Below the pieces are notes generated by a model. It saw only the letters and a list, made by a program, of their open reading frames with translations. It was not told the origin of the DNA and did not search any database. The position numbers and the translations under genes were made by a program. This document shows, in pieces, positions 28,781 to 61,341 of a stretch of 64,000 bases of DNA. The stretch is from Chamaesiphon minutus PCC 6605 (lineage in GTDB: Bacteria > Cyanobacteriota > Cyanobacteriia > Cyanobacteriales > Chamaesiphonaceae). The stretch lies in NCBI RefSeq assembly GCF_000317145.1, contig NC_019697.1, positions 4,724,886-4,788,885 of the forward strand, in the 5' to 3' direction. The stretch's first letter is position 1; every line of letters begins with the position of its first letter.

Positions 28781-28801
28781 GCGGCGCGCAAGCTTCGAGA
28801 C
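28766..28801. repeat. Repeat R6, copy 1, inside the IS end
   Basis: GCGACCGCCGCTTAGGCGGC followed by GCGCAAGCTTCGAGAC. Relatives are at 60524-60558, 62419-62453 and, more weakly, 41217-41252. Its TAG is the stop codon used by the altered clpX. Confidence 0.7.
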
Positions 28802-28841
28802 CAAAAAAATATTCAAAATAGGATGAAATCTTTAGCTACAT

Positions 28842-29230
28842 TTAATAGTTAGCTGAATATGGGATGGGAACATCCCAGAACTTGAGATAGTGAATTAGTA
28901 ATCTAACTGAATGTGCCAGCATTTCTTTCGACTTAGAATAGCAAAGCGTCTTGCGATGAAGTCTGGCTAAATAGTGTCTAAGCCTTGTATTTTCTCCCTC
29001 TACTCTAGTCATATAAGTTTTACAAATAATCTGGTCTCCATCTGGAATAAATATCGGGTAGACTGGCCATCCATCCGTGATGTAAAAGTAGCATTTCCAG
29101 CTACTGACTAGTTCCCATAATGGCTGAAAAGTTTTTGCACTGTGGTCGCCCAGTACCCATCCTAAAATTCCTGGGTGAAAGTGATTTACTGCCGTCCAGA
29201 GCCAGATTTTGTTTTTTTTGAGCCAACAAA
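28842..29230 (-). CDS. IS1 transposase, catalytic part (reached by -1 frameshift)
   Basis: Read in the frame one base behind orfA, the segment after the A-run gives KIWLWTAVNHFHPGILG, then TDGWPVYPIF and RVEGENTRLRHYL, ending WDVPIPYSANY and TAA at 28842. The Asp of TDGW and Glu of VEGENT are the second and third members of the DDE triad; the first Asp is in orfA (GELDELETFVG). The part has no good start of its own and is expected to be made as a fusion with orfA. The frame is open throughout. Confidence 0.85.
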
Positions 29231-29566
29231 TGTTTCTAGTTCATCCAGCTCTCCTACTTGTGGAATTATTTCTGGTGCATAAGCATTTGGGAGTAATTCA
29301 CCGACTTGCTTAACCCAATTAATAATACTTGTATGATGTACTCCCTTAATTCGCTCAATTGCTCTGAAACCCATCCCATTTACATACATGAGGAGACATT
29401 CTTTTTTAATTTCTTCTCCATAACCTTGATCAGTTTGATAACAATCTATGAATTGTCTGCCGCAATCAACACAGATATGATTCTGTTTGCCTGCTTTATG
29501 CCCATTTTTATTAACACGAGTTGACTTACACTCTGGACATTCGATCGACTCTAATTTACTGTTCAT
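29186..29566 (-). CDS. IS1 transposase, orfA (zinc finger and HTH part)
   Basis: The 126-residue product has the IS1 N-terminal zinc finger (CPECKSTRVNKNGHKAG and HICVDCGRQF), an HTH (GFRAIERIKGVHHTSIINWV) and the first catalytic Asp in LDELETF. It runs into TAA 33 bases beyond eight consecutive A's followed by C on the minus strand (29212-29219). IS1 elements use A-AAA-AAC slippage of -1 to make the complete transposase, and the sequence here allows that exactly. Confidence 0.9.
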   Translation of the reverse strand: MNSKLESIECPECKSTRVNKNGHKAGKQNHICVDCGRQFIDCYQTDQGYGEEIKKECLLMYVNGMGFRAIERIKGVHHTSIINWVKQVGELLPNAYAPEIIPQVGELDELETFVGSKKTKSGSGRQ

Positions 29567-29622
29567 TGTTTTTAGTCAACTTTACACTCGATCGTTATAT
29601 CATACATCAATTCAGCAACGCC

Positions 29623-29658
29623 CACCCTGCTTCCGTCCCCAAGCCAGAATCAGCTTAA
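29623..29658 (+). pseudogene. Severed native 3' end of clpX
   Basis: The first bases after the IS translate without a gap as HPASVPKPESA and a TAA stop. That is the typical ClpX tail in cyanobacteria (AELL-HPSSLPKPESA type) and joins in frame to [10 protein letters not shown] before the IS. Confidence 0.9.
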
Positions 29659-30010
29659 ACCGGACATAGTATGGCTGGGAGATAGCGATACTTCTAAGCC
29701 ATATCTCTTAGATAACTACTCGTGCTAACGTACCAACCAGTTCGCTACTAGGCTTCAAGTTCCAGACTACCAGCCGCTTTGAGTCATCGATCGCCTACAT
29801 AGCTTATCGATAGTTACTTTGACCCAAAGTCTGTCTACCATAAGCTGTTTGAGTCAAAGCTAAGACGAACGATCGAGTAAAAAAGTTCCATACAAATGGC
29901 TGATGTTCAAACAGAAGTTAGAGAGTTATATTTGATATATAAATTCAAGTCGCTAATTTAAGTCTTTTAAGTAGAGCAACACGAATTTTAATAATTCTTT
30001 TTTAGTAGTG
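29659..30010. other. Intergenic region after clpX remnant
   Basis: No gene is visible. It leads into a candidate small RNA at about 30011. Confidence 0.5.
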
Positions 30011-30099
30011 CTGACCTAACTGTAAATTCACCATTACTAAGGGAAATCGGGGTTTAAGCTTTCGCAGGCTGGTAACATTGTTGCCAGCCGTTTTTGTTT
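30011..30099 (+). ncRNA. Candidate small RNA, copy A
   Basis: A T-rich box TTTTTTAGTA followed by TGCTG ends near 30012, an unpaired-looking core AGGGAAATCGGGGTTTAA lies at 30040-30057, and a terminator closes it: GGCTGGTAAC/GTTGCCAGCC (30067-30089) then TTTTTGTTT. A second locus at 60730-60822 has the same three parts in the same order and spacing. No open frame covers it. Size and build recall the Yfr2/Cyano-1 small RNAs of cyanobacteria, but I cannot confirm membership. Confidence 0.5.
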
Positions 30100-30248
30100 G
30101 TAATATTTCTAAGCTGGCCGAGCTGGGCAACCTTAACAGTCGAAGCCTACTTATGAATTCAACCTGACTTCAAAATAAGCATACTACCAGAATAGCTCGC
30201 TCGATCGGCGAGCGCGGTTTCGATCGTTCCAAAATATCGATGGCACCT

Positions 30249-30881
30249 TTACACTCCCGTATGCCCGAATCCACCCTTCCGTTCGCCTACGGTCGTTAAC
30301 TCCGCCACTACCCGCTCTTGCGCCACACACACCTCCAGATACATCACCTGCGCAATTCTGGCACCATGACTGAAGAGATGTAAATCTCCACCATGATTGA
30401 CTAACCCAATTCCCACCCAATCAGGATAGTGCTCGTCCACAATTCCGGGCGCATTAATTACCGTAATCGAGTTCTTGCACGCCAAGCCACTGCGAGGACA
30501 TACCAGCATTGTCGCAATCTTGTTAGGGTCATCTGTACTCAAACCCACCTTAAAGCCTGCATTGACGATTTTCTGCGTGCCTGGAGCGAGGACGAAAAAT
30601 CTCAGTTGCGGTTCGGATTGCTGCAATAAATCTATCGTCAAATCATCCGTAATTTTCTGGCCATTAATATATAACGATCCTTCTGGGTATTTAGTTAAGA
30701 AAAGATCGTGCTGGGCACGAATAGACTCCATAAAATCATCTGGAGGTGCTACTGGTAAATAAGCCTTCACATCCAGAGCAGCAGCTCTATCTACGGCTCT
30801 GAGCGGTCTAAATTCTGGAGCTGCTAAGACATATTCGACTGAAATCACGATCTTACGTTCGCCTCGATTTGGCTTCAACAT
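30249..30881 (-). CDS. dut: dUTPase-family nucleotidohydrolase
   Basis: The 210-residue protein has the dUTPase motifs in order: PRSGLACKNSI at 129-139, APGIVDEHYPDWVGIGLVNHG at 144-164 (with the conserved GxxD-type turn), GARIAQVMYL near 173, and the C-terminal Gly-rich arm GERKGGFGHTGV. It is longer than a standard dUTPase (about 150), with about 95 extra N-terminal residues before the fold, which resembles the dUTPase/dCTP deaminase-type proteins. It should convert dUTP to dUMP; a bifunctional or dCTP-directed role cannot be excluded. It stands alone. Confidence 0.82.
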   Translation of the reverse strand: MLKPNRGERKIVISVEYVLAAPEFRPLRAVDRAAALDVKAYLPVAPPDDFMESIRAQHDLFLTKYPEGSLYINGQKITDDLTIDLLQQSEPQLRFFVLAPGTQKIVNAGFKVGLSTDDPNKIATMLVCPRSGLACKNSITVINAPGIVDEHYPDWVGIGLVNHGGDLHLFSHGARIAQVMYLEVCVAQERVVAELTTVGERKGGFGHTGV

Positions 30882-60558: not shown

Positions 60559-60729
60559 AGTTAAATGTTGGGTCGATAATGGCAAGCTGTGAGCCGATTG
60601 TGGCAGTAGCGAGCAGATCTAGGTGAAATGGCTGATGGCCGTGTGTCCGAGATCGGGTTATCTTTGTGATATGAAGTTGGTTCGAGCTAATTTAGATTGG
60701 CAACCAGCGTCAAAAATATTTTTTTAGTA

Positions 60730-60822
60730 ACTGCTGCTCTCATTTGCATCTGTTTACGAAAGGAAATCGGGGTTTTAAATTTGAATGGCGTTCGTTAGTA
60801 ATCTAGCGATCGCCATTTTTTT
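60730..60822 (+). ncRNA. Candidate small RNA, copy B
   Basis: It has the same parts as copy A at 30011: TTTTTTTAGTA with CTGCTG after it (60720-60736), the core AAGGAAATCGGGGTTTTAAA (60760-60779), then a long terminator hairpin, AATGGCG...CGCCATT (60784-60817) with inner pairing TCGTTAG/CTAGCGA around TAAT, and seven T's. No open frame fits. It lies between the MFS gene and DUF3119. Confidence 0.5.
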
Positions 60823-60930
60823 GTCGATCTCGTTGGCTCAGAAACCCGACTTCTCAGACTCGACAAGGGAGGCACGATGGGTCGCTTGACACCATCATTG
60901 TCTCCTGTCTGAGAGTAGAATTGCAGCTTA

Positions 60931-61341
60931 TTACAGCGAACTAGCAGCACTATCTGACTTGGGGCGATAGTACTCCAGACAAGTTCGTAACATCTGCGGG
61001 TCGAAAATAATCGGCAAGAAGTGAATACTGTTGACTTCTTTGAAATAAAAGAGGATCGGTGCGGGCTGCCAAAAAATCTCCCAATTTTCCCATTCAGTGT
61101 AGGGGAACGTGCGAATGATATTACTGCCACGATAGACATTGAGCGTGGTGGTAGTAAATTCTAATTTGATAATTGCGGTTTGAATTGACAGAAATACACC
61201 AAAGATCCCAACTGCTAAACCTACCCATAATTGAAATGTGGCGATCGATATCGATGCAGCAATCAGGACGATCGGAATTTTGTAATTGGGTGCGAGTACT
61301 ACTCGATCGGGCAATCGCTCTGACATAGGAGTGCTGATCAT
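60931..61341 (-). CDS. DUF3119 family membrane protein
   Basis: The 136-residue protein has two adjacent membrane segments at about 24-56 (IPIVLIAASISIATFQLWVG and then VGIFGVFLSIQTAIIKL), then a soluble part with the family pattern TLNVYRGSNIIRTFPYTEWE, NWEIFWQPAPILFYFKE and SIHFLPIIFDPQML. DUF3119 is found in cyanobacteria and plastids, with no known role; the layout resembles a PH-like domain on a membrane hairpin. An in-frame ATG five codons down is an alternative start. Confidence 0.85.
   Translation of the reverse strand: MISTPMSERLPDRVVLAPNYKIPIVLIAASISIATFQLWVGLAVGIFGVFLSIQTAIIKLEFTTTTLNVYRGSNIIRTFPYTEWENWEIFWQPAPILFYFKEVNSIHFLPIIFDPQMLRTCLEYYRPKSDSAASSL

Follow-up and report, generated by a model that had tools for sequence, protein, structure and literature searches.

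A multi-copy family of candidate small RNAs in Chamaesiphon cyanobacteria and a conserved complementary site before a PP2C-type phosphatase gene

Yfr2/Cyano-1 RNAs are laid out as hairpins and a terminator, and the Qrr sRNAs of Vibrio are several paralogous copies that have one common pairing core and separate promoters. In one study, Yfr2 is described as multi-copy at unconserved loci, and the conserved motif of Yfr1 as single-stranded between two stem-loops and used for base pairing (PMC6778093); a second study gives the Yfr1 motif as CACUCCUCACACC (PMC4734099).

We examined a window of 64,000 nucleotides from Chamaesiphon minutus PCC 6605 (G000:C1:4724886-4788885, where G000 denotes the window's own genome), in which two intergenic loci, at 30.0 and 60.7 kb, look like copies of one sRNA family, so far unnamed, in Chamaesiphon cyanobacteria. 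A 14-nt core, GGAAATCGGGGTTT, is present at each of them on the + strand, at 30042-30055 and 60762-60775. The first-pass annotation had proposed a pair of paralogous sRNAs, with TTTTTTAGTA..TGCTG about 30 bases before a shared core and, after it, hairpins that differ in sequence within a kept architecture. This description is borne out: TTTTTTAGTA..TGCTG is found at both loci, TGCTG is separated from the core by ∼29 nt at the 30.0-kb locus and by ∼24 nt at the 60.7-kb locus, a hairpin with a T-run follows the core (30067-30089 and 60784-60817), and the terminator sequence differs between types of copy while the core is common to them. Both loci were also said to lie in gaps, and indeed they are located between plausible genes; a 114-aa minus-strand ORF (60795-61139) overlaps the terminator at 60.7 kb, and also overlaps the DUF3119 gene (60931-61341) in another frame. 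The features of the two copies, A and B (of types A and B, respectively), are as follows.

29894..29905, + strand: copy A upstream element AAATGGCTGATG (sequence match)
29975..30001, + strand: copy A predicted promoter (block identical in 7/7 type A copies)
29992-29997, + strand: copy A candidate -10 element TAATTC (read by eye)
30002..30097, + strand: sRNA copy A, predicted transcript of ∼96 nt (covariance model match of 49.8 bits; orthologous copies near clpX in 7 genomes)
30002..30040, + strand: copy A 5′ hairpin, stem UUAGUAGUG/CAUUACUAA (folds)
30042..30055, + strand: copy A core GGAAATCGGGGTTT, proposed target-pairing seed (identical in 7/7 type A copies)
30067..30097, + strand: copy A intrinsic terminator (terminator scan; 2 pairs changed on both sides in type A)
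60626..60637, + strand: copy B upstream element AAATGGCTGATG (sequence match)
60717..60722, + strand: copy B candidate -10 element TATTTT (from its place relative to the 5′ hairpin)
60724..60824, + strand: sRNA copy B, predicted transcript of ∼100 nt (covariance model match of 99.9 bits, to be read in the light of this copy belonging to the model's own building set)
60727..60757, + strand: copy B 5′ hairpin (folding z of -0.5)
60762..60775, + strand: copy B core GGAAATCGGGGTTT, proposed target-pairing seed (exact match)
60784..60823, + strand: copy B terminator hairpin and T-run (folds; double changes at 8/15 pairs in an alignment of 9 type B copies)

When the search for the core was extended to the whole genome (6.76 Mb, 3 contigs), we found one more exact copy, at G000:C1:4399508, and a fourth copy with one mismatch in the core; the opposite strand of the genome holds no exact core, and a reversed-pattern control gave none. 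All three exact cores have the same layout, with TTAGTA.. before and a hairpin and T-run after, and exact cores that lack a terminator, whose frequent occurrence the first-pass annotation had named as evidence against its own reading, were not found in the genome. With up to two mismatches allowed, the core occurs 75 times genome-wide compared to 89 for the reversed control and is not commoner than expected from it; thus, only exact or near-exact cores within the full layout carry meaning. The analysis adds to the earlier description two further genome copies, a common upstream element and a 5′ hairpin, and the earlier observation is both right and understated, except that its comparison with Yfr2 is wrong as a statement of membership.

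Apart from size, the number of copies and their dispersed positions, a likeness to Yfr2/Cyano-1 is not supported. No Rfam model gives a score at or above its gathering threshold for either locus; Cyano-1 and Cyano-2 are unmatched at E ≤10, and at this threshold both loci give only unrelated, chance-like matches. A separate Cyano-1-like candidate (L123, G000:C1:4044876-4044948) scores 40.1 bits, with a gathering score of 41, and carries GTGTGAGGAG, which is complementary to part of the Yfr1 motif and is found in none of the 26 copies of the family described below. We rejected membership in RF01701 on these three grounds: no model match, no GTGTGAGGAG, and a separate candidate in the genome. The Chamaesiphonaceae sRNA resembles Yfr2/Cyano-1 (RF01701) in its size class, in its several copies per genome and in its combination of hairpins and terminator, but differs from it in having neither a covariance-model match nor the Yfr1-complementary GUGUGAGGAG. 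Moreover, our searches place it in one cyanobacterial family only, whereas Yfr2 is said to occur in nearly all of the phylum. With regard to several copies at unconserved loci, the comparison is mixed, since there are 2–4 copies per genome but types A and C sit at fixed loci. Like Yfr1/Yfr10, the Chamaesiphonaceae sRNA has a conserved motif for which base pairing is proposed, but this motif is the G-rich AAUCGGGGUUU rather than CACUCCUCACACC, and Yfr1 is conserved far more widely. With Qrr it shares paralogous copies, a single common core (here proposed for pairing) and separate (here predicted) promoters; it differs in showing no sign of Hfq or of a quorum signal, and its sequence relation to Qrr was compared through Rfam alone.

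To describe the family, we read 26 copies in 11 of 11 Chamaesiphonaceae genomes searched, between 2 and 4 in each (4, 2, 2, 2, 2, 3, 3, 2, 2, 2 and 2 in G000 to G010); these counts are minima, since several of the genomes are incomplete MAGs. The copies comprise 7 of type A, 11 of type B, 4 of type C and 4 from the sister genus, in which the sRNA (L121, L122) occurs as two copies in tandem, ∼260 nt apart. The exact 14-mer core is present in 18 of the 26, and AATCGGGGTTT in 24, the exceptions being AGTCGGGGTTT in the type B copy of G001 and AATTGGGGTTT in one G010 copy. Among 100 genomes of the order, the exact core occurs in 11/11 family genomes and in 3/89 others; the three cores outside the family (L041-L043) lack the architecture and were rejected as relatives. 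A covariance model built from nine type B copies recovers the family in all 11 family genomes, and adds both the diverged type C (in the own genome at C1:3962339-3962439, minus strand) and the tandem copies of the sister genus. The search with model R1 found no convincing copy in 280 out-of-family genomes of the order (291 genomes in all, where stricter filters apply, as they do to any search of more than 40 genomes); seven outsiders matched by R1 (E 1.2e-5 to 0.005) proved on inspection to lack the core. Similarly, an exact-pattern scan of named genomes yielded no convincing copy outside Chamaesiphonaceae: TACNRRGGGAAATCGGGGTTTA was found in 14 stretches, of which 11 are from Chamaesiphon and the other three correspond to G009, G010 and G001. 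The named-genome collection holds one genome per species for 84,980 species, and near relatives of the own genome may be absent from it.

Two of the three Chamaesiphon types keep their genomic place. Type A is found downstream of clpX in 7/7 genomes, at a distance of 338–433 nt from the end of clpX to the core in six genomes and 1262 nt in the own genome; the adjoining genes look like tig and clpP, the Pfam identification covering clpX alone. Type C adjoins a 143-aa gene (weak DUF997) in 4/4 cases, and a lepB-like signal-peptidase gene is nearby in G000, G002 and G003. The sister-genus copies adjoin the same 143-aa gene, and thus the type C locus may be the ancestral one. This gene is present in 95 of the 100 order genomes, and the 25 out-of-family leader sides that were read by eye contain no such sRNA unit. 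Type B is located downstream of an MFS gene in 6/11 cases and in other places in 5, the latter including the G002 copy and the one G005 copy that precede a co-oriented ORF described below.

Each unit is arranged, from 5′ to 3′, as a ATGGCTGA(T/G)G element, a promoter-like block, a 5′ hairpin, the core and a terminator. We folded the types separately because MAFFT, when applied to all of them together, put the terminators out of register and yielded no structure; the covariation analysis covers types A and B. The terminator is well supported by the aligned sequences: double changes affect 8 of its 15 pairs in nine type B copies, the whole type B structure of 24 pairs is 97.2% paired compared to 28–52% in slid controls, and none of 500 shuffles reached the type B covariation score. 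A simple terminator scan at 60.7 kb missed the copy B hairpin, and a 5-pair stem at 60645-60658 was its sole entry there. Compared to 100 shuffles each, all copies but one have a negative folding z for the 5′ hairpin (25/26; the mean is -2.17), and in the one exception, C_G006, the segment start is probably misplaced. The hairpin of copy B is weaker than that of most other copies; among ten other type B copies z ranges from -1.48 to -3.77 in nine and is -0.59 in G003. The 5′ stem of copy A is unchanging across type A, and hence there is no covariation inside the type, while the type B stem has changes on one side of its pairs only, so that covariation is no proof of the stem. The sister genus has another stem sequence (GGUAU/RUACC) in the corresponding position, which is the better argument for a 5′ hairpin. 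The earlier claim that the conserved core is single-stranded stands for the type B consensus, in which the core is unpaired. It does not stand throughout, as the type A consensus shows a weak pairing between the core GAAA and UUUC, and minimum-energy single folds of copy B and of one sister-genus copy leave the core partly buried; in copy B, part of the core pairs with the 5′ region. From the modelled folds we infer that the seed may be exposed in the folded RNA.

The promoter-like block AGCAACACGAATTTTAATAATTCTTTTTTAG is identical in all seven type A copies. No consensus sigma-70 promoter was found on the + strand at either locus, and it is the conservation of this region that suggests that the sRNA copies would have promoters of their own. 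The upstream element ATGGCTGA(T/G)G is exact in 24/26 copies, with one base changed in B_G000b and B_G002, and its distance from the core, measured in 25 copies, is 129–146 nt; in types B and C it is followed by GTTATNTT at near-constant spacing. This common element is the best handle on the signal that would control the family.

The core had also been proposed as a target-binding or protein-binding site, and the former is probably right: the leader of a PP2C-type phosphatase gene contains an exact complement of part of the core. A search of the own genome returned 75 complements of the core with ≤2 mismatches, three of which are the exact sRNA copies; 69 of the remaining 72 were inspected, the type C copy being among them. 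These 69 include two one-mismatch sites at gene starts, of the PP2C gene and of a Spy-like gene, which were the two genes traced in relatives, and several two-mismatch sites ≤60 nt before an ATG (L018, L177, L182, L186). In the own PP2C-domain gene (PF13672), AACCCCCGATTTCC ends 6 nt before the ATG. A close orthologue is found in 7 of 9 Chamaesiphon genomes, and all seven leaders contain CCCCGATTTC, which is the exact complement of the core GAAATCGGGG and ends 7 nt before the ATG. Apart from this island, at leader columns -8 to -17, the 75 nt upstream of the PP2C start have no long conserved stretch and are largely scrambled: the columns of the island are all identical in 7/7 leaders, and of the other 65 columns, 2 are invariant, with the seven leaders not independent because the PP2C proteins of G000/G003 and of G001/G008 are near-identical pairs. 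G002 and G005 have the sRNA and no close PP2C orthologue.

We compared the predicted duplexes of the PP2C leaders with those of 45 ORF starts in the window. With the type A core, the PP2C leaders give -18.8 to -26.6 kcal/mol, compared to a background mean of -11.1 (sd 3.3, lowest -19.3), although the leaders of G001 and G008 (-18.8) do not exceed the strongest background start; for the type C core, the values are -15.0 to -22.3 for the PP2C leaders and -12.3 for the background mean. Both sister-genus genomes have the sRNA; G010 retains part of the PP2C site in the corresponding position (ACCCCGA), and G009 lacks the site. A search for PP2C homologues in 80 genomes of the order returned 30 loci, four of them in the family, and CCCCGATTTC is found in 0/26 out-of-family homologues within 300 nt before the aligned start, a stretch that is partly coding because many of these proteins have an N-terminal extension and a true start further upstream. 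In 25 of these homologues, the 14-nt complement is matched over at most 7 consecutive bases, and in the other (L340) over 8 (AAACCCCG, near the aligned start). These comparisons suggest that the sRNA family probably controls the mRNA of the PP2C phosphatase, at a site that fits the core letter for letter.

We consider it likely that the copies form a lineage-specific, multi-copy family of trans-acting base-pairing sRNAs of ∼85–100 nt, with the PP2C mRNA as the best-supported target. Each copy would be driven by its own promoter, with the common element far upstream, and would be made up of a 5′ hairpin, a seed with AAUCGGGGUUU at its centre and an intrinsic terminator. The seed would pair with C-rich sites at ribosome-binding regions, and on the phosphatase mRNA such pairing would block translation. 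Several copies may provide added dosage, or may take several signals as input. A more specific version, in which promoters sharing ATGGCTGA(T/G)G make the family a Qrr-like, dosage-additive switch that is confined to Chamaesiphonaceae and jointly sets the PP2C level, is conceivable but rather doubtful; if true, it would couple an environmental signal to serine/threonine phospho-signalling. The family adds to the cyanobacterial genus Chamaesiphon an sRNA with clean comparative support, and the conserved 10-nt complement at the start of the phosphatase gene offers a sharper prediction than the long lists of targets that are usual.

The RNA might be real and its core bind a protein, for example a translational regulator with a liking for GGA, in which case the match at PP2C would be incidental. 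Such a role would suit a core that is longer and more invariant than a pairing site requires, and would also suit its invariant GUUU end, which is mostly unused by the PP2C sites and which they leave unexplained. We think that this is unlikely, since the 10-nt PP2C island is the exact complement of part of the core and sits at the ribosome-binding position, and both base changes that occur within AAUCGGGGUUU, the second A to G in B_G001 and C to U in a G010 copy, could keep G-U pairing. It is very unlikely that the units are instead cis-acting, riboswitch-like leaders or attenuators of the genes downstream. The succession of hairpin, conserved core and terminator is attenuator-like, and a co-oriented long ORF, which reads as isoleucyl-tRNA synthetase, begins ∼160–180 nt downstream of the G002 type B copy and of one G005 type B copy (L105, L112), as does a co-oriented gene ∼550 nt downstream of the third own-genome copy (L101). 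However, the next gene is on the opposite strand at both window loci (30249-30881 after copy A and the DUF3119 gene after copy B), the own type C copy runs towards lepB, which has the opposite orientation, opposite-strand ORFs lie ahead of the type B copies in G001 and G006, and no downstream gene is common to all copies.

The units could also be small protein genes, as the ATGGCTGATG element opens an ORF that runs through the core in the sister genus (..GEIGV-stop), with 3/4 sister-genus copies reading through to the core. By contrast, all 21 of the Chamaesiphon copies that were translated (of 22) stop after 4–35 codons, before the core, and the orthologues of G009 and G010 have three residue differences and one silent change, with one copy frameshifted. 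We found no conserved coding frame in the sRNA units, where the detailed analysis covered the frame that opens at the upstream ATG; the small-protein reading of the ATGGCTGATG element was rejected for its early stops and its lack of a coding substitution pattern, the ATGGCTGA(T/G)G element does not behave as a conserved reading frame, and we regard the idea as highly improbable. The presence of multiple copies, and of type B at more than one location (6/11 by one MFS gene, 5 elsewhere), would be expected of an intergenic repeat, mobile or palindromic, that regulates nothing, but the terminators differ in sequence by type and keep their pairing through double changes, and types A and C hold the same place across genomes, which makes such a repeat extremely improbable. 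Nor do we find credible a divergent Yfr2/Cyano-1 RNA that acts as partner or sponge of Yfr1: the similar size, the several copies per genome, the 5′ hairpin and the terminator speak for it, but it is largely refuted by the lack of any Cyano-1 or Cyano-2 match at E ≤10 and by the distribution of GTGTGAGGAG, which is absent from the 26 copies and present in L123.

Turning from these alternatives back to base-pairing sRNAs, further targets may exist. In the gene of an LTXXQ (Spy/CpxP-like, PF07813) protein, AAACCCCGATTTCT ends 3 nt before the ATG. Of the 8 Chamaesiphon orthologues, 2 (G000, G003) have the exact site and 6 a degenerate one, and the predicted energies with the type A core are -14.9 to -18.3. 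This envelope protein is a second target candidate, in two genomes. In a family-wide scan for CCCCGATTTC-N-ATG, two genes recur among the downstream proteins compared, a comparison that covered five of the seven PP2C loci and neither gene of the Spy-like pair (G000, G003): the PP2C gene and, in G002 and G004 only, an ABC-transporter ATPase. A second pattern, AAACCCCGAT-N-ATG, was scanned and listed as well. Matches to CCCCGATTTC-N-ATG are more numerous than those of a reversed control in most Chamaesiphon genomes and not in the sister genus; this control is unfair in a CGAT-rich genome, and the matches include ordinary terminator hairpins and sRNA copies. At the ABC-transporter ATPase genes (L278, L283), CCCCGATTTC lies 7 nt before the ATG, and the two proteins are identical over 257 aa. 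Because the proteins are identical over the compared stretch, the recurrence says little, and the gene is possibly a further target or possibly shared contamination.

We regard this sRNA family as new, although the kind of regulator is an established one. In searches of Rfam and of the open-access literature, the latter by titles and abstract beginnings, we found no description of this Chamaesiphonaceae sRNA family; at the same depth, no sRNA work on Chamaesiphon was found in the open-access literature, nor any description of the family in connection with PP2C and cyanobacterial sRNAs. A search of the open-access literature for the RNA core string gave no match.

The own genome has ∼830–920 extra bases between clpX and copy A (window 28781-30001). 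The extra stretch, which looks like an old insertion-sequence remnant, holds a 126-aa ORF (29186-29566, minus strand) with a weak InsA-type Zn ribbon, under the Pfam cut-off.
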